A stretch of DNA of 64,000 nt, taken from positions 42,993-106,992 of the forward strand of contig NZ_CALUYG010000002.1 in the NCBI RefSeq assembly GCF_944324935.1. Reading direction: 5' to 3'. The notes under the pieces were generated by a model. That model saw nothing but the letters and a program-made list of their open reading frames with translations. It was not told where the DNA came from and ran no database searches. A program made the position numbers and the translations under genes. This document shows positions 2,477 to 43,915 of the stretch, piece after piece (positions within the stretch are counted from its first letter, which is position 1; every line of letters starts with the position of its first letter). This stretch comes from an uncultured Desulfovibrio sp. (GTDB lineage: Bacteria; Desulfobacterota; Desulfovibrionia; Desulfovibrionales; Desulfovibrionaceae).

Positions 2477-3790
2477 CTATGCCGGGGCCTTGCCGTCCAG
2501 CCCCAGATGCTGTGCGTACAGCTGGACGGGATGGCGGACGACCACGGCGTCGTGATTTTGCGAAAGGACATCTTCCAGCTGCATCATGCAGGCTGGACAG
2601 GCGGCGGCCGCCACGGCGGCGCCGGTCTCCACGATGTTGTCCCGTTTGCGCTGACCGATGCGCAGGGAGAGGTCGTAATGGGTCAGATTGAAGGAGCCGC
2701 CGCAGCCGCAGCAGCGGTCGGCCTCGTCCATCTCCACCAGACGGCAGGGGGAGGACGCCCTGATGAGCGTGCGGGGCTGGCTGCGGATCCCCAGCCCCTT
2801 GGAGAGGTGGCAGGAATCGTGGTAGGTGACGGCCAGCGTGCCCTCGTCGCTTTCCGGCAGGGCCGCCACCTTGAGCACATCCACCAGAAAGGCGGTGATG
2901 TCCAGCGTCTTTTCGGCCAGGCGGGCGGCGGCGTCGCGCTCCAGCGTGCCGAGGCGCTGGGCATAGTGCGGCCAGAGGGAATGGATGGTCTTGGTGCAGG
3001 TGGGGCAGGGCGTGACGAGGTAGTCGAAATCGCCGCGCAAAATGGGCAGATTGACGGCGATCTGGCGCAGCATGCCCGTGGCGTCGCCCGAGGCCAGCGC
3101 GGGCATGCCGCAGCAGGCCAGCCCCTCCGGCAGGAAGACGGCCACCTTGTGATGGCGCAGCACGGCAAGGCAGGCCTGCGCCATGTCCACATAGAGCTTG
3201 TCCCCCATGCAGCCGGGATAGAAGGCCACCTTGAGGCCGCCTTCCGGGCGGGGCTCGTCCAGCGGGCCCGTGAGGGAGGTCAGGGAGCGGGGAGCAAGCG
3301 GGCGGATATGCCGTTTGCCCAGCAGAAAGGAGAGCATGGGCGCGCAGGCCGTCTCCTGTGCATCGTGGTTGCGGCGCAGCATGAGGCGTTGCAGGGGAGC
3401 GCCCACGCGCACGCTCAGGTTGAACAGTTCCGGCCGGGGCAGCAGGAAACGGAAGATCATCTTTTTCAGAGGCGGCAGACCGAGATAGGTGTTGACCACC
3501 TCGCGCGCTTCAAAAAAGATCTCCGTGATCTTCACGCCCGACGGACAGGCCGCCTCGCAGGAGCCGCAGAGCAGGCAGCGGTCGAGCTTGCCCGCCACGG
3601 CCTGCGGATCGCAGATGAGCTCGTGGGCCAGGTTGCTCACCAGCGCCAGTTTGCCGCGGGCCACATCGGCTTCTTTCATGGTGGCCCCGAACATGGGGCA
3701 GACGCTCTGGCAAAGGCCGCAGCGCATACAGGCCGCCAGCCGGTCATCCAGCGCCATGAGACGCCGGGCAAGGGAATGCAGATCGCTCAT
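2477..3790 (-). CDS. glcF: GlcF-like Fe-S subunit of (D-)lactate/glycolate dehydrogenase
   Basis: Electron-transfer partner of the adjacent FAD subunit; together they oxidise a 2-hydroxy acid, here most likely lactate, and hand electrons to the membrane. The 437 residues hold two N-terminal 4Fe-4S motifs (CMRCGLCQSVCP near residue 22 and CLLCGSCEAACP near 72) and two CCG domains (YPGCMGD with CCGMPALA; DSCHLSKG with CCGCGGSF). This is the standard GlcF layout and near the usual length. It starts 10 bp after the glcD-like stop. Substrate is inferred from the lut genes and the lactate permease nearby; a glycolate role cannot be excluded from sequence. Confidence 0.9.
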   Translation of the reverse strand: MSDLHSLARRLMALDDRLAACMRCGLCQSVCPMFGATMKEADVARGKLALVSNLAHELICDPQAVAGKLDRCLLCGSCEAACPSGVKITEIFFEAREVVNTYLGLPPLKKMIFRFLLPRPELFNLSVRVGAPLQRLMLRRNHDAQETACAPMLSFLLGKRHIRPLAPRSLTSLTGPLDEPRPEGGLKVAFYPGCMGDKLYVDMAQACLAVLRHHKVAVFLPEGLACCGMPALASGDATGMLRQIAVNLPILRGDFDYLVTPCPTCTKTIHSLWPHYAQRLGTLERDAAARLAEKTLDITAFLVDVLKVAALPESDEGTLAVTYHDSCHLSKGLGIRSQPRTLIRASSPCRLVEMDEADRCCGCGGSFNLTHYDLSLRIGQRKRDNIVETGAAVAAAACPACMMQLEDVLSQNHDAVVVRHPVQLYAQHLGLDGKAPA

Positions 3791-3800
3791 CGCGGCCCCC

Positions 3801-5189
3801 CTAACGGATGCTCACCAGCTTGGTGGGATTGAGCAGCCCCTTGGGATCAAGGGCGCGCCGCAGCCGCTGCGAGAAGAGGATGGTGCCGCGGGAGGTCTCC
3901 TTTTCCATCCACCTGGCCTTGGCCGTGCCGATGCCGTGCTCGCCGGACAGCGTGCCGTGCAGGCTGATGGCCGTCTCGAACATCTCGTCGATGGCCGCCT
4001 CCACCCGGGCGAACTCGTCGGCATCGCGCTTGTCGCAAAGGAAGGTGGGATGCAGGTTGCCGTCGCCGGCGTGACCGAACGTGCCGACCTCCACACGATG
4101 TTTGGCGGCGATGTCGGTAACGGCCTTCATCATGGCCGGGATCTGCGAGCGGGGCACGGTGGCGTCTTCCAGGATGGTGGTGGGGCGGGCGCGGGCCAGC
4201 ACCGGCAGGGCCATACGCCGCGCTTCCCAGAGTTTTGTCTTTTCGGCGGCGTCGCGCGCCACATGTACGGCCGTGGCGCCGGTGGTCTTGAGCACGCGCT
4301 CCACGGCCTCGGCATCGTCGGCCACCTGGGCCGGATGCCCGTCCACCTCGATGAGCAGGATGGCGGCCGCATCACGCGGCAGGCCGGCATGAGTGAAGTC
4401 GTCCACGCGCACGATGGTGTTGTTGTCCAGGAATTCCAGCGTACAGGGGACCACATGGGCGGCGATGATGCCGGCCACGGCTTCGGCGGCCTTCTGCATG
4501 TCGTCAAAGACGGCCATGAGGGCCTTGGAGGCCTTGGGCGGCGGCACGAGCTTGAGGATGGCCTGGGAGATGACGCCAAGCGTGCCCTCGCTCTGGGTGA
4601 GCATGCCCGCCAGATTGTAGCCGGTGACGCATTTGACGGTGCGCGAACCGCTCTTGACCACTTCGCCGGTGGCGTCGAAAAACTCCACGCCCATGACGTA
4701 ATCCTTGGTGACGCCGTACTTGAGGCCGCGCAGGCCGCCCGCGTTCTCCGCGATGTTGCCGCCGATGGTGGAGACGGACTGCGAGCCCGGGTCCGGCGGA
4801 TAGAACAGCCGGCGCTTTTCCACGGCCGCGGCGAATTGCGCCGTGATGACGCCGGGTTCCACCACGGCGTAGAGGTCGTTCTCGTTGATCTCCAGGATGC
4901 GGTTGAGGCCGTTGGTCAGGATGACCACCGTATCCGGCACGTCGGGGATGACGCCGCCGGACAGGTTGGTCCCCGCGCCGCGCACGGTCATGGGGATGCC
5001 GTTGTCGTACAGTTTTTTGACGCACTGGCCAAGCTGTTCGGTGGTGGTGGGGCGCACCACCAGCGTGGGCACGACAGGCGCGAGCACCGCGGAGTCATAG
5101 GAATAGCTCTGCCGGTCGGCCTCGGAGCTGAACACGTTCTCGGGGCCGAGCAGGGCCTCGAAATCCTTGATGAGAGCATTGTTTGCCAT
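3801..5189 (-). CDS. glcD: FAD-linked D-lactate/glycolate dehydrogenase (GlcD family)
   Basis: Catalytic flavoprotein of 462 residues, typical for the GlcD/D-LDH family. The N-terminal PCMH-type FAD domain is clear (VRPTTTEQL, then RGAGTNLSGG, and PPDPGSQSVSTIGGNIAENA-type region), and the C-terminal FAD-oxidase domain carries GTFGHAGDGNLHP. It probably oxidises D-lactate to pyruvate, the entry step for growth on lactate in Desulfovibrio. I chose the ATG at 5189 because GAGGG lies 7 bp upstream; an in-frame start at 5234 has no Shine-Dalgarno. It is the first gene of the minus-strand operon glcD-glcF-lutC-lutBA, with a sigma-70-like promoter about 75 bp upstream. Confidence 0.92.
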   Translation of the reverse strand: MANNALIKDFEALLGPENVFSSEADRQSYSYDSAVLAPVVPTLVVRPTTTEQLGQCVKKLYDNGIPMTVRGAGTNLSGGVIPDVPDTVVILTNGLNRILEINENDLYAVVEPGVITAQFAAAVEKRRLFYPPDPGSQSVSTIGGNIAENAGGLRGLKYGVTKDYVMGVEFFDATGEVVKSGSRTVKCVTGYNLAGMLTQSEGTLGVISQAILKLVPPPKASKALMAVFDDMQKAAEAVAGIIAAHVVPCTLEFLDNNTIVRVDDFTHAGLPRDAAAILLIEVDGHPAQVADDAEAVERVLKTTGATAVHVARDAAEKTKLWEARRMALPVLARARPTTILEDATVPRSQIPAMMKAVTDIAAKHRVEVGTFGHAGDGNLHPTFLCDKRDADEFARVEAAIDEMFETAISLHGTLSGEHGIGTAKARWMEKETSRGTILFSQRLRRALDPKGLLNPTKLVSIR

Positions 5190-40078: not shown

Positions 40079-43000
40079 TCAGCGCCGGAGATCCACCGGC
40101 ACGCGCACGCGCTGCCCGGCCTTGTTGCGGAAGAGAAGGTAACCGTTTTTCCATCCGAAAAGATAGACCCGGCGGGTAACGTCCACATCCTTGCGGCAGT
40201 AGGCGGCGATCTCCTCCACGCGGCCCTCCTTCCACCAGCGCAGGGCCTGCAGGCCGTCGGCGCTCTTGCCCTCGTCAAGAGTGGCCTGCGCCACATTGTC
40301 GAGCGACACCCGGTAATGCAGACGCTCCTGAAGGCATTGCAGCAGATCGAGACCGGGCAGATCCTTCAGCGAAAAGCCCGCGAAAGGCTGGAGCACGGCA
40401 TAATCGAAGCGGAAGGAATTGAAGCCCACCACCAGCGGCGCGTCCCGCAGACGTTCAAAGCAGGCCGCCAGCTCTTCCTGACGGTAGGTATGGAACCGTC
40501 CGTCCCGGCTGTCGTAGAGCACGGCCACGCTTACGCCCATGTCCCCGGCCCGGTGCCAGCCGCCCACCTCGGCGGCGCTGCGGCGCGTCTCCACGTCCAG
40601 CACCACGAAGGGTGGCACGCCCTCCTCGGAGAGGTCCGCCGCAGCGTCCGGGCCGGTCGCCCTTTCCGCCGCATCCGCAAGCTCCACCATATCCGGCCGG
40701 TCCGTCTGCCCGTCCGCCGGTCCGCTGCCTCCGCGCTCCATCGGCCGCATGCCGCCCGTACCGGCCTCCCCGGCCGCGCCTGCCGGCCCGCGCGCCGGCG
40801 CGGGAGAACAGCGCCATTCCCGCACCAGCGCCTCGCCTTCGGCCTCGCCGCCCGGGGCCAGCACGTCATCCACCAGCGCCACGGCCCCGGCCTTGCTGAT
40901 GGGCCGGTTGCCCGAACCGCACTTGGGCGAATGCACGCAGGAGGGACAGCCGTCCTCGCAGGGGCAGGAAGCGATAGCCTCCCGGCTCAGGCGCAGCAGC
41001 TCCCCGGCCTGCGGGAAAGCCTGCCGCGTCAGGCCGGCGCCCCCGGGCAGACCGTCATAAATGAACACGCCCGGCAGTCCTGTCTGAGGATGGAGCGGGA
41101 TGGAGATGCCGCCAAAATCGTTGCGGTCCGCCATGACCAGCAGGGGCAGCAGGCCGATGGCCGCGTGTTCCAGCGCATGGATGGCTCCCATGAAATGCAC
41201 GAACGCCTCCTCCAGCCGCAGGCGCGTACTGTCGGGAAAGACGTACCACAGCCCTTCGGTCTCAAAGACATGCGGCGGCGCGTCCAGCGGGACGATGGTC
41301 AGCAGGCGGTTGCCGGACGTGCTGCGCTTCTCGTAGCCCGTGACCTGATCCATGATCCGCAGGCGGCCCCGGCAGACCATGCCCCGGCCCAGCGGACGGC
41401 GTTCCGTCTCTTCCAGGATGTCCGTGCTCTTCCGCCCCCGCACCCGCGTGAACCAGCCCACCTTTTCCGGCCGCGCCAGCACCCGGCCGCGCTCCGTGTC
41501 CAGCTCCTGCACCACATAGCTTTTGCCCTGATGCAGATAGACCGCGCCGGGATGCGTCTCCCGCCAGACGCGCCAGCCGTCCACCGTGCCGATGGGCCGC
41601 CCCTCCGTGTCCTCGATGACGCAGGACTGCCCCGCACCGCGCAGGTCAACCAGCCGTTGCGGCCGCTTGCGGGCCGCCAGCCACTGATCCCCCTCAGCGC
41701 TGCGCAAGAGCTCGCCCGTCCGCTCAAGCTGCCGCACGGCCTCCCGTGCCGCCGGCTGCCGCAGCCAGGCTTCGCCCTCCCGCACCGGCATCTCCGCCGC
41801 CGCGCATTCCAGATGCCGGGCCAGGATCACCTCGTTATCAGGATTGACCACCGCCTTTTCCGGCGGCCGGCTGAAAAAATCGTCGGGATGACGCATGAAG
41901 TACTGATCCAGCGCGTCCTCCCCGGCCACCAGCAGCACCGCGGATTCCTGTTGAGCCCGCCCCACGCGCCCGCCGCGCTGCAACGTCGCCATGACCGTAC
42001 CCGGATAGCCCACCAGGATGCAGACATCCAGCCCGCCGATGTCGATGCCCAGCTCCAGCGCGCTGGTGCTCACCACGGCCAGCAGCTCGCCCGAGGCCAT
42101 GCGCGCCTCGATGTCCCGCCGCTCTTCCGGCAGATAGCCCGCCCGATACGCCGCGATCTTCCCGGCATACGCCCCGTGCAGGCTTCCCGCCCAAAGGCTG
42201 ATGAGTTCGGTCATGCGTCGGGAGCGACAGTAGACGATGGTACGCAGCTCGCGCGCCAGCGCGGCCTTGAGCAGGTCGATGGCCGCCGTGGAAGGGCTTT
42301 GTTCAGGATCGATGAAGACCACATGGCGCGGTCCCTGCGGCGCGCCGGTTCCGTCCACCACCACCGGCGCGGACAGGCCGGACGCCTCGTCCGCACCGCA
42401 GAGCGCCGCCGCCAGTTCGCCGGGATTGCCCACCGTGGCCGTGCAGAAGATATAGGTCGGCCGCGCGCCGTAGCGTCCGGCAAGCCGGTTGAGCCGCCGG
42501 AACACCTGCGCCATGTGCGCCCCGAACACCCCGCGGTAGGTGTGCGCCTCGTCCACCACCACATGGGAAAGCCCCGCCAGAAAGGCCGCCCATTGCTCAT
42601 GGTGCGGCAAAACGGCCAGATGCAGCATCTCGGGATTGCTGATGAGCACTTGCGGCGGATCCCGCCGGATCTTGCGCCGGAAGTGCTCCGAAGTGTCTCC
42701 GTCGTACAGGGCCGCCCGAGGACGACTGATCTCCGGCCAGAGAGCGCACAGGCTGTTGAAGCTCGAAAGCTGGTCCTGCGCCAGCGCCTTGAGCGGAAAA
42801 AGATACAGGGCCCGCGCCTCCGGGTCCTGGAGAGAGCGCTCCAGCACGGGCAGATGATAGACGAGGCTCTTGCCGCTGGCCGTGGGCGTGGCCACCACCA
42901 CCGATCGCCCGGAGCGCACATAGTCCGTGGCCAGCGCCTGATGCGCGTACAGCCGCGCCATCCCCCGCGCTTCCAGCAGCCGCCGCACCGCCGCGGGCCA

Positions 43001-43117
43001 CGGCAGGCGCGGGTCCGCAAACCGCGCTTCCCGCCCCGGCAACAGGCGGTGCGTCCGTATCTGGCCGGCAAAGCGCGGCGATGCCAGCAGCTTCTCGATA
43101 TACTCGCCCACGGACAC
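40079..43117 (-). CDS. Fusion of MrfA/Hrq1-type superfamily 2 helicase with MrfB/YprB-type RNase H-like exonuclease
   Basis: A 1012-residue protein. N-terminal helicase: Walker A ATPTASGKS (76-84), DEAH box VVVDEAH (187-192), and LQRGGRVGRA. A DUF1998/MZB zinc site, CPCEDGCPSCVHSPKCGSGN, lies near 718-737. A Gly/Ala-rich linker (about 765-830) leads to a C-terminal exonuclease domain of the PF13482 type with DEDDy residues: VVLDVETRR (Asp, Glu), GFNSFRFDYAVL (Asp), YCRKDVDVTRR (Tyr-x3-Asp). In Bacillus, MrfA and MrfB are separate proteins that repair mitomycin C damage together. GTG start at 43117 with GGAGG seven bases upstream; 3 bp after the acetyltransferase stop. Confidence 0.88.
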   Translation of the reverse strand: MSVGEYIEKLLASPRFAGQIRTHRLLPGREARFADPRLPWPAAVRRLLEARGMARLYAHQALATDYVRSGRSVVVATPTASGKSLVYHLPVLERSLQDPEARALYLFPLKALAQDQLSSFNSLCALWPEISRPRAALYDGDTSEHFRRKIRRDPPQVLISNPEMLHLAVLPHHEQWAAFLAGLSHVVVDEAHTYRGVFGAHMAQVFRRLNRLAGRYGARPTYIFCTATVGNPGELAAALCGADEASGLSAPVVVDGTGAPQGPRHVVFIDPEQSPSTAAIDLLKAALARELRTIVYCRSRRMTELISLWAGSLHGAYAGKIAAYRAGYLPEERRDIEARMASGELLAVVSTSALELGIDIGGLDVCILVGYPGTVMATLQRGGRVGRAQQESAVLLVAGEDALDQYFMRHPDDFFSRPPEKAVVNPDNEVILARHLECAAAEMPVREGEAWLRQPAAREAVRQLERTGELLRSAEGDQWLAARKRPQRLVDLRGAGQSCVIEDTEGRPIGTVDGWRVWRETHPGAVYLHQGKSYVVQELDTERGRVLARPEKVGWFTRVRGRKSTDILEETERRPLGRGMVCRGRLRIMDQVTGYEKRSTSGNRLLTIVPLDAPPHVFETEGLWYVFPDSTRLRLEEAFVHFMGAIHALEHAAIGLLPLLVMADRNDFGGISIPLHPQTGLPGVFIYDGLPGGAGLTRQAFPQAGELLRLSREAIASCPCEDGCPSCVHSPKCGSGNRPISKAGAVALVDDVLAPGGEAEGEALVREWRCSPAPARGPAGAAGEAGTGGMRPMERGGSGPADGQTDRPDMVELADAAERATGPDAAADLSEEGVPPFVVLDVETRRSAAEVGGWHRAGDMGVSVAVLYDSRDGRFHTYRQEELAACFERLRDAPLVVGFNSFRFDYAVLQPFAGFSLKDLPGLDLLQCLQERLHYRVSLDNVAQATLDEGKSADGLQALRWWKEGRVEEIAAYCRKDVDVTRRVYLFGWKNGYLLFRNKAGQRVRVPVDLRR

Positions 43118-43120
43118 GGG

Positions 43121-43915
43121 CTATCCTCCGGCCGGTCCACCCGTTTCGCCCGTCTCCGGTGTCGCGCCGTCACCGCGCAGACTGTTGGCCGCATGCCCCA
43201 CATCCACGGATTCGCTCAACCCCTCTTCCGGCGGCACGCACAGCCCCGCCGCCTCGCAGGGCGTCAAACGGCGCACCACCCGCGCGGGCGCGCCCGCCGC
43301 CACGCACAGGGGCGGCACGTCCCGCGTCACCACGCTGCCAGCGCCGATGATGGCCCCGTGCCCGATGGTGACGCCCTTCAGCACCATGCAGCCCATGCCC
43401 AGCCAGGCGTGATCGCCTATCTCCACCGGCGCGTCATGTTCCAGCCCCGGATCGACGCAACGCCGCTCCGGCGGCCACGGCGCATGGAAATCCGAATCCA
43501 CCACGATGCAGTTGGGCGCAAGCATGACCTGCCGCCCCAGCCTGATGCAGGTGGACCGCGCCGTCAGCGCCGCGCCGGTGAGCTGGCAGCCCTCCCCCAG
43601 CACGATCCGCGCGCCGGGCCCGAACGTCCGCAGACGGCACGGCGCCAGCACCGTAGCCGCCGTGGCCCGCCGCCACGAGGAAATGAAGCTGCACCCCGCG
43701 CCGATCTCGATGCTGCTGCCCGGCCAGCGCATGAGCCCCACCGGACCGTGCGCGCTCACGCCCGCCCCCGTGCGGACCCCGAGACAACGCGCCTTGCAGC
43801 GCAGCCGCAGCGTCCCCAGCAACCGGCCGCCATCCTGCATGATCCGCAGGCTCGCGTAACTGATGATATTGGCGGGCGTCAGCCCCCGCTCCCGGATCTT
43901 GCGCCAAAGGCTCAT
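43121..43915 (-). CDS. Left-handed beta-helix acyl/acetyltransferase (WcaF/LacA-like)
   Basis: A 264-residue hexapeptide-repeat transferase. The C-terminal active region is clear: VVDSDFHAPWPPERR, DHAWLGMGCMVLKGVTIG, GAIIGAGSVVTRDVPP and AAGAPARVVRRL. Such enzymes acetylate sugars or related polar groups using acetyl-CoA. The N-terminal 60 residues are basic and may face the membrane. AGAGGAG precedes the ATG. It is 3 bp ahead of the helicase-exonuclease gene and likely in the same transcript, but no functional link is apparent. Confidence 0.87.
   Translation of the reverse strand: MSLWRKIRERGLTPANIISYASLRIMQDGGRLLGTLRLRCKARCLGVRTGAGVSAHGPVGLMRWPGSSIEIGAGCSFISSWRRATAATVLAPCRLRTFGPGARIVLGEGCQLTGAALTARSTCIRLGRQVMLAPNCIVVDSDFHAPWPPERRCVDPGLEHDAPVEIGDHAWLGMGCMVLKGVTIGHGAIIGAGSVVTRDVPPLCVAAGAPARVVRRLTPCEAAGLCVPPEEGLSESVDVGHAANSLRGDGATPETGETGGPAGG

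Follow-up and report, generated by a model that had tools for sequence, protein, structure and literature searches.

The window analyzed here is a 64,000-nt stretch of contig NZ_CALUYG010000002.1 from an uncultured Desulfovibrio sp. On its reverse strand it carries a gene for a protein in which a YprA-type superfamily 2 (SF2) helicase is joined to a DEDDy 3′-5′ exonuclease-like domain. The open reading frame (ORF) is uninterrupted; as read, it begins with a GTG start codon at 43117, with a GGAGG motif upstream, and its stop codon ends at 40079. The gene and its parts, with model confidence given as predicted local distance difference test (pLDDT), are as follows:

40079..43117, (-) strand: whole gene, YprA-type SF2 helicase plus DEDDy 3′-5′ exonuclease-like domain, 1012 amino acids (aa)
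40844..43117, (-) strand: helicase part, residues 1-758, with DEAD, Helicase_C, WHD_HRQ1 winged-helix and MZB zinc domains; its model matches 6znp, 6znq and 6zns
40934..41173, (-) strand: MZB (DUF1998) zinc-binding domain, residues 649-728, with C718, C720, C724 and C727
40613..40843, (-) strand: low-complexity, fast-evolving linker, residues 759-835, with residues 777-825 at pLDDT <50
40082..40612, (-) strand: DEDDy exonuclease-like domain, residues 836-1012, with D841, E843, D905, Y973 and D977

Scanning with Pfam placed four domains of the helicase part above their cut-offs, DEAD (residues 58-230, 99.5 bits), Helicase_C (283-388), WHD_HRQ1 (424-495) and MZB (649-728, 76.9 bits), and the four cysteines of the CxCxxxCxxC motif were invariant in all 22 aligned sequences, the window's included. 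The best sequence match among solved structures was MrfA (YprA) of Bacillus subtilis (6znp; E 2e-144 over residues 29-730). When the full-chain AlphaFold model (mean pLDDT 85.8) was searched with Foldseek, the top four matches were MrfA chains (6znp, 6znq, 6zns). With domain core, winged helix and four cysteines all present, the protein belongs to the YprA superfamily of MZB/DUF1998 helicases, and the original prediction of an SF2 helicase with a DUF1998 four-cysteine site was borne out. The C-terminal domain, modeled at pLDDT 95.6, is of the DEDDy exonuclease type, with DxE, FD and YxxxD motifs in a DnaQ-like fold; D841, E843, D905, Y973 and D977 were invariant in the same 22 sequences, so that all of the predicted acidic residues are in place. 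Family B and T7 DNA polymerases ranked best among the 50 listed of 493 Foldseek matches to this domain, the matched regions presumably being their proofreading domains. The linker, proposed from the outset to be flexible, falls below pLDDT 50 over residues 777-825 and ranges in length from 25 to 304 aa among 29 sequences (window included). These linkers share little sequence, apart from a short SPAP-like motif near the start within the genus.

The distribution of the fusion was surveyed in 61 near genomes (own genome included; protein match threshold E 1e-30) and in a phylum sample of 297 Desulfobacterota genomes, for which one-frame counts were read from the match rows. The fusion protein was matched in 50 of the 61 near genomes. 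In the phylum sample the exonuclease domain was found in 86 genomes and the helicase in 130, with both in 84. Helicase and exonuclease lay in one open frame in 83 of the 86 domain-bearing genomes, including three in which the helicase was interrupted by contig ends or a frame break (G109, G263, G309); of the remaining three, G286 has the domain as a solo gene, whereas G178 and G349 are contig-edge cases, G349 with both parts at contig edges. Near relatives L051, L052, L053 and L055 share the same frame, and L054 ends at its contig edge. A scan of species genomes returned at least 534 encoding stretches, the best 80 of which were, to judge by title, from Desulfovibrio and kin, Mailhella, Bilophila, Desulfobacteraceae, Desulfobulbaceae and Deltaproteobacteria; the closest species-named carriers among these 80 were Candidatus Desulfovibrio gallistercoris and Candidatus Desulfovibrio intestinavium. 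The fusion was present in Nitratidesulfovibrio too (L087, L088). In plasmids and phages the exonuclease domain gave weak matches alone, in 2 of 72,556 and 3 of 50,697 records, respectively.

Ratios of non-synonymous to synonymous substitution rates (dN/dS), calculated against L051, L053, L055 and L002, were 0.08-0.17 for the helicase, 0.05-0.25 for the exonuclease and 0.31-0.75 for the linker. The linker value was 2.5- to 15-fold above that of either domain in comparison with L051, L053 and L055, and just 1.2-fold above that of the exonuclease in comparison with L002, where linker dS is near saturation. Helicase and exonuclease are thus both under purifying selection, which is weaker on the linker. 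Likewise, the DxET, GFNxxxFD and YxxxD motifs were kept in 128 of the 129 distinct full-length exonuclease domains of the fetched loci, two solo domains included. Taken together, the matches in the near genomes, the 83 one-frame genomes and the purifying selection indicate that the fusion is not a chance or sequencing join. An artefact of sequencing or assembly, which the original prediction had named as a danger in the form of two adjacent genes wrongly joined, is ruled out by the one-frame genomes, the same frame in near relatives and the selection on both parts; the fusion is real and extends through the Desulfovibrionales and beyond.

Some loci showed other arrangements. In Desulfovibrio piger ATCC 29098 (L059, 1717-5546) the frames of helicase and exonuclease differ, whether because the draft is wrong or because the linker is truly split; D. 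piger PG-251 (L063) has one fusion frame of 1122 aa. Solo exonuclease domains were seen at L158 (G162, 4367-4930; 188 aa), in a genome that carries the fusion as well, and at L198 (G286, 3146-3670), within a 219-aa frame in a genome without a helicase match, where no helicase remnant was found within the 8.3 kb read. Of the ORFs neighboring the L158 gene, we take one to be RmuC-like and another NERD-helicase-like. Near residues 243-253 the helicase motor holds an insert of ~105 aa in L083, ~88 aa in L088 and 30-47 aa in G013, G017 and G021.

The original prediction had equated the two parts of the chain with MrfA and MrfB. Such a protein could have arisen from an mrfAB operon that lost its intergenic stop, the active-site His then becoming Tyr, the tetratricopeptide repeat (TPR) domain being lost, and the stand-alone sister helicases losing their nuclease; the helicase-then-nuclease order is indeed that of MrfAB pairs. 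The B. subtilis MrfB degrades DNA 3′-5′ with a DEDDh active site and carries a TPR domain at its C terminus (PMC11194089). In the fusions the position of the DEDDh His is occupied by Y973, invariant in 22 of them, whereas His-Asn before the last Asp was invariant in 18 of 18 aligned MrfB homologs of the phylum. The fused chain ends with the exonuclease fold, and Pfam found no TPR match in it at E 10, a weak test given that among the MrfB homologs scanned just L155 gave TPR matches, themselves weak.

Scanned alone, the C-terminal domain matched PF13482, as had been predicted, at 27.3 bits against a cut-off of 22, and PF10108 at 29.2 against 24; in the full-protein scan PF13482 was just above its cut-off (22.7) and PF10108 just below (23.1). 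PF13482 was matched at E 1e-3 or better by 22 of 23 fused domains, in keeping with descent from MrfB. Scores, however, differed: three MrfB proteins encoded by separate genes reached 115-139 bits, but the window's domain and three more domains, fused or solo, reached 26-40. At genome level, the window's own genome matched neither PF13482 (E 0.001) nor the MrfB profile. Fused domains were missed by the MrfB core profile at E 1. When PDB sequences were searched with the fused-domain profile, MrfB (8un9) was not returned at E 10, whereas the phylum MrfB profile retrieves it at 8e-48; 8un9 was also absent among the 50 Foldseek matches listed. Because the closest structural likeness of MrfB is reportedly to the exonucleases of archaeal family B polymerases (PMC11194089), structural matches alone cannot separate the fused domain from MrfB. 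A profile-profile comparison of the two gave a probability of 49% with the DxET, FNxxxFD and last Asp motifs aligned, which suggests that fused nuclease and MrfB are relatives within the DnaQ superfamily, not close ones. In the nuclease tree, whose branches are long and whose bootstrap values had yet to stabilize, the fused domains and two PF10108 proteins were separated from MrfB and two archaeal proteins (98/94), but an approximately unbiased (AU) test did not reject fused domains plus MrfB as one clade (p 0.34). PF10108 was discarded as the true family: any match at all occurred in 10 of 99 genomes, and the two proteins above 80 bits are long branches that fall inside the fused domains in the tree and decide nothing.

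Fused domain and MrfB were then compared across the phylum. A strong MrfB was taken as ≥120 bits on the MrfB profile, a line drawn after a gap from 121 to 48 bits had been seen; 35 genomes at 29-48 bits, whose matches we took for other DnaQ-type exonucleases, were left out of that count. Among the 297 genomes, 86 had the fused-type domain, 41 a strong separate MrfB and none both (Fisher p 2e-7, uncorrected for kinship); for the 130 helicase genomes the corresponding figures were 84, 37 and none, with neither in 9. A YprA-type helicase (E 1e-60) occurred in 37 of the 41 strong-MrfB genomes and was absent at that threshold from G119, G183, G210 and G321. Neighborhoods were fetched for 39 of the 46 helicase genomes without a fused domain. 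An MrfB-like gene lay downstream of the helicase in 22 and upstream in 2; in 6 there was none nearby, 2 ended at a contig end, and in 7 the helicase stood alone. A genome-wide search found MrfB elsewhere in the 6 and in one contig-end case (G301), and no strong MrfB in the genomes of the seven stand-alone helicases, three of which gave weak matches (30-35 bits) and four none.

Fifty-four helicases were placed in a careful tree, which is unrooted and does not fix the nearest pair among its three groups. The MrfA clade (100/100) held 21 rows, namely 16 helicases beside an MrfB gene, 4 with MrfB elsewhere in the genome, and B. subtilis MrfA. The second clade (100/100) held 23 fused and 6 stand-alone helicases, and the third group (92/82) combined two actinobacterial helicases with the two whose nuclease gene lies upstream. 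As a unit the fused rows had weak support (59/28), and a single origin of the fusion is compatible with the tree. An earlier quick tree that included long archaeal and Thermomicrobium rows had joined the fused-plus-stand-alone helicases to the MrfA clade (87, not starred), as a true mrfA-mrfB fusion would have it; 30 of the 37 helicases from MrfB genomes were placed in that tree, 28 in the MrfA clade, 2 outside both clades and none with the fused proteins. An AU test rejected (p 0.0023) a grouping, chosen once the quick tree was known, that would unite fused helicases with the MrfA clade and exclude the actinobacterial rows, the stand-alone rows and those with an upstream nuclease. These results suggest that the fused helicases are not MrfA proper, forming instead a group apart from B. 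subtilis MrfA and the MrfB-paired helicases; a sister relation of the fused-plus-stand-alone clade to the MrfA clade would be compatible with them. Of the predicted MrfA-MrfB fusion, then, the YprA/MrfA superfamily, the DEDD nuclease and a weak PF13482 match stood. In its literal form it was rejected, with Tyr in place of His, no TPR match, low PF13482 scores and a helicase outside the MrfA clade, and its derivation from an mrfAB operon followed by later change we consider unlikely, in view of the clade shared with stand-alone helicases that have neither an MrfB-like gene nearby nor a strong MrfB in the genome.

The interpretation we favor, with somewhat better than even confidence, is that of a single-chain DNA-repair enzyme in which an ATP-driven helicase of the YprA superfamily, outside the MrfA clade, is tethered to a DEDDy 3′-5′ exonuclease. 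MrfA is a 3′-5′ helicase and MrfB a 3′-5′ exonuclease (PMC12458937, PMC11194089), and SftH is a 3′-5′ helicase (PMC12458937); by analogy with MrfA/SftH and with MrfB/DnaQ-type relatives, the fusion would have the same polarity and exonuclease activity, and we infer a role in DNA repair. At a nick, gap or flap the helicase would load onto single-stranded DNA and track 3′ to 5′, and the exonuclease, kept close by a flexible linker of variable length, would trim the 3′ end of the strand under unwinding; the damaged DNA would be removed, with resynthesis to follow. A tethered nuclease acting at that same 3′ end is plausible because the MrfAB docking model puts the free 3′ end near the MrfB active site (PMC11194089). 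One chain would in this way do the work of the two-protein MrfA/MrfB in genomes without a strong MrfB.

Several observations weigh against this interpretation. UvrA is also encoded in the window's own genome, so that there is no a priori call for a further repair route and the fusion would be an additional one; the self-contained crosslink repair supposed in the original prediction is likewise conjectural. Within the genus, 9 of 37 genomes (counting the window's own) gave no match at E 1e-30, which makes the fusion dispensable. The sole motif failure among the 129 exonuclease domains, at L183 (G133, 3561-4088), alters acidic residues in two motifs. Nine fused-domain genomes (G071, G080, G140, G145, G153, G163, G204, G257, G312) have weak MrfB-profile matches of 29-43 bits, which we took for other DnaQ-type exonucleases, and the mutual exclusion of fused domain and MrfB may stem from descent as much as from function. 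In the L183 protein a live helicase may thus carry an inactive nuclease.

More tentatively, the fusion may be a second, separately built helicase-exonuclease machine, in which a non-MrfB DEDDy nuclease was joined to a non-MrfA branch of YprA helicases and which replaces MrfAB in much of the phylum. If this is true, the repeated pairing seen in MrfAB, in this fusion and in DinG of Staphylococcus aureus (SaDinG) would mark the 3′-5′ exonuclease at the helicase as the working unit of the route.

Alternatively, the pairing of helicase and PF13482-type nuclease could be older than MrfAB, the fusion descending from it and the stand-alone sisters having lost the nuclease. Two loci on haloarchaeal plasmids (L211, L213) have YprA-like helicases beside genes for helix-hairpin-helix plus PF13482 nucleases with YCxxDV, i.e., of the DEDDy type, as an old pairing would lead one to expect. 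The archaeal helicase rows are long branches that could not be placed, however, and in the nuclease tree described above the archaeal nucleases fell on the MrfB side of the split from the fused domains. L139 and L140, the two helicases outside both clades, have an MrfB-like gene directly upstream rather than downstream, the nuclease of L139 bearing the His-Asn of a DEDDh enzyme; they too fit an ancient pairing, which on balance we judge improbable. An anti-phage enzyme akin to the defense branch of YprA helicases (DISARM, Druantia, ARMADA) seems very improbable: C-terminal nucleases are frequent on defense helicases of the superfamily (PMC12458937) and PADLOC gives hits over the helicase core (BrxHI at 167.6 bits), but in the 25 of 51 PADLOC matches listed the best stretches all fell within residues 36-440, the nuclease domain alone had no PADLOC match in the three proteins scanned, the upstream gene is common to many relatives, and 83 of the 86 domain-bearing genomes have a single match to the exonuclease domain. 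Least credible is a nuclease acting on RNA or R-loops rather than on damaged DNA: some DEDDy exonucleases, NrnC and RNase D among them, are RNases (PMC11194089) and nanoRNase C is a weak profile match (E 0.46), but the best profile match, also weak, is T7 DNA polymerase (E 0.08), Foldseek ranks DNA polymerases first, and MrfA and SftH act on DNA (PMC12458937, PMC11194089).

The fusion gene is preceded by the following gene, the GGAGG motif of the fusion falling inside its end:

43121..43915, (-) strand: upstream gene, presumably acyltransferase-like, its stop codon 3 bases before the fusion start

The name was assigned from the sequence pattern. Homologs of this gene were found in 41 of 214 loci, some loci coming from one genome twice.

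No paper on the present protein was found in the literature searched. A 2025 preprint mentions YprA helicases fused to MrfB/YprB homologs (PMC12458937); we think that these include the present proteins, and the architecture as such is already in print. The passages of that preprint that were consulted name no organism of this phylum, draw no DEDDy/DEDDh distinction and mention no exclusion. The DEDDy nature of the fused nuclease, the position of the helicase outside the MrfA clade and the exclusion of fusion and MrfB in one phylum were not found in those parts of the literature that were searched.

Among known systems, the seven stand-alone YprA-type helicases of the phylum sample, which have no nuclease domain, lie closest to the fused helicases in the trees. 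Actinobacterial SftH, compared by profile alone, likewise has none; its family TIGR03817 covers residues 37-753 of the fusion at 744.4 bits, below the cut-off of 874.1, and exceeded that cut-off in none of the 297 phylum genomes, MrfA-clade helicases scoring lower than the fusion, at 562-664 bits except G281 and G081 at 707-708. WRN offers another single-chain union, of a RecQ helicase and a DEDDy exonuclease, but its exonuclease is N-terminal and it has no MZB domain, whereas the exonuclease of the fusion is C-terminal and its helicase is YprA-type with MZB. DinG of S. aureus also combines a helicase and a 3′-5′ exonuclease in one chain, with mitomycin C and formaldehyde phenotypes, and differs in having a DinG helicase of 5′-3′ polarity and an N-terminal exonuclease of the DEDDh type (PMC12345164). 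MrfA/MrfB (YprA/YprB) of B. subtilis shares with the fusion the helicase domain order, the MZB zinc site, a PF13482-matching DEDD exonuclease partner and the functional logic. The fusion departs from it in being one chain instead of two, in the clade of its helicase, in its DEDDy rather than DEDDh nuclease without a TPR match, and in its low PF13482 score. In an AlphaFold model the N-terminal segment of MrfB docks on the winged helix of MrfA, and the MrfA-MrfB contact rests on two-hybrid data and a model (PMC11194089); where MrfB has its docking segment, the fusion has the linker. A naturally occurring single chain that fixes the ratio of helicase to nuclease at 1:1 is a tractable object for structural work. 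With it one can ask if the nuclease has to work at the site of the helicase, and if DEDDh and DEDDy enzymes can take each other's place in that position. The fusion further corrects an easy equation, that a helicase plus a PF13482-like domain amounts to MrfA plus MrfB.

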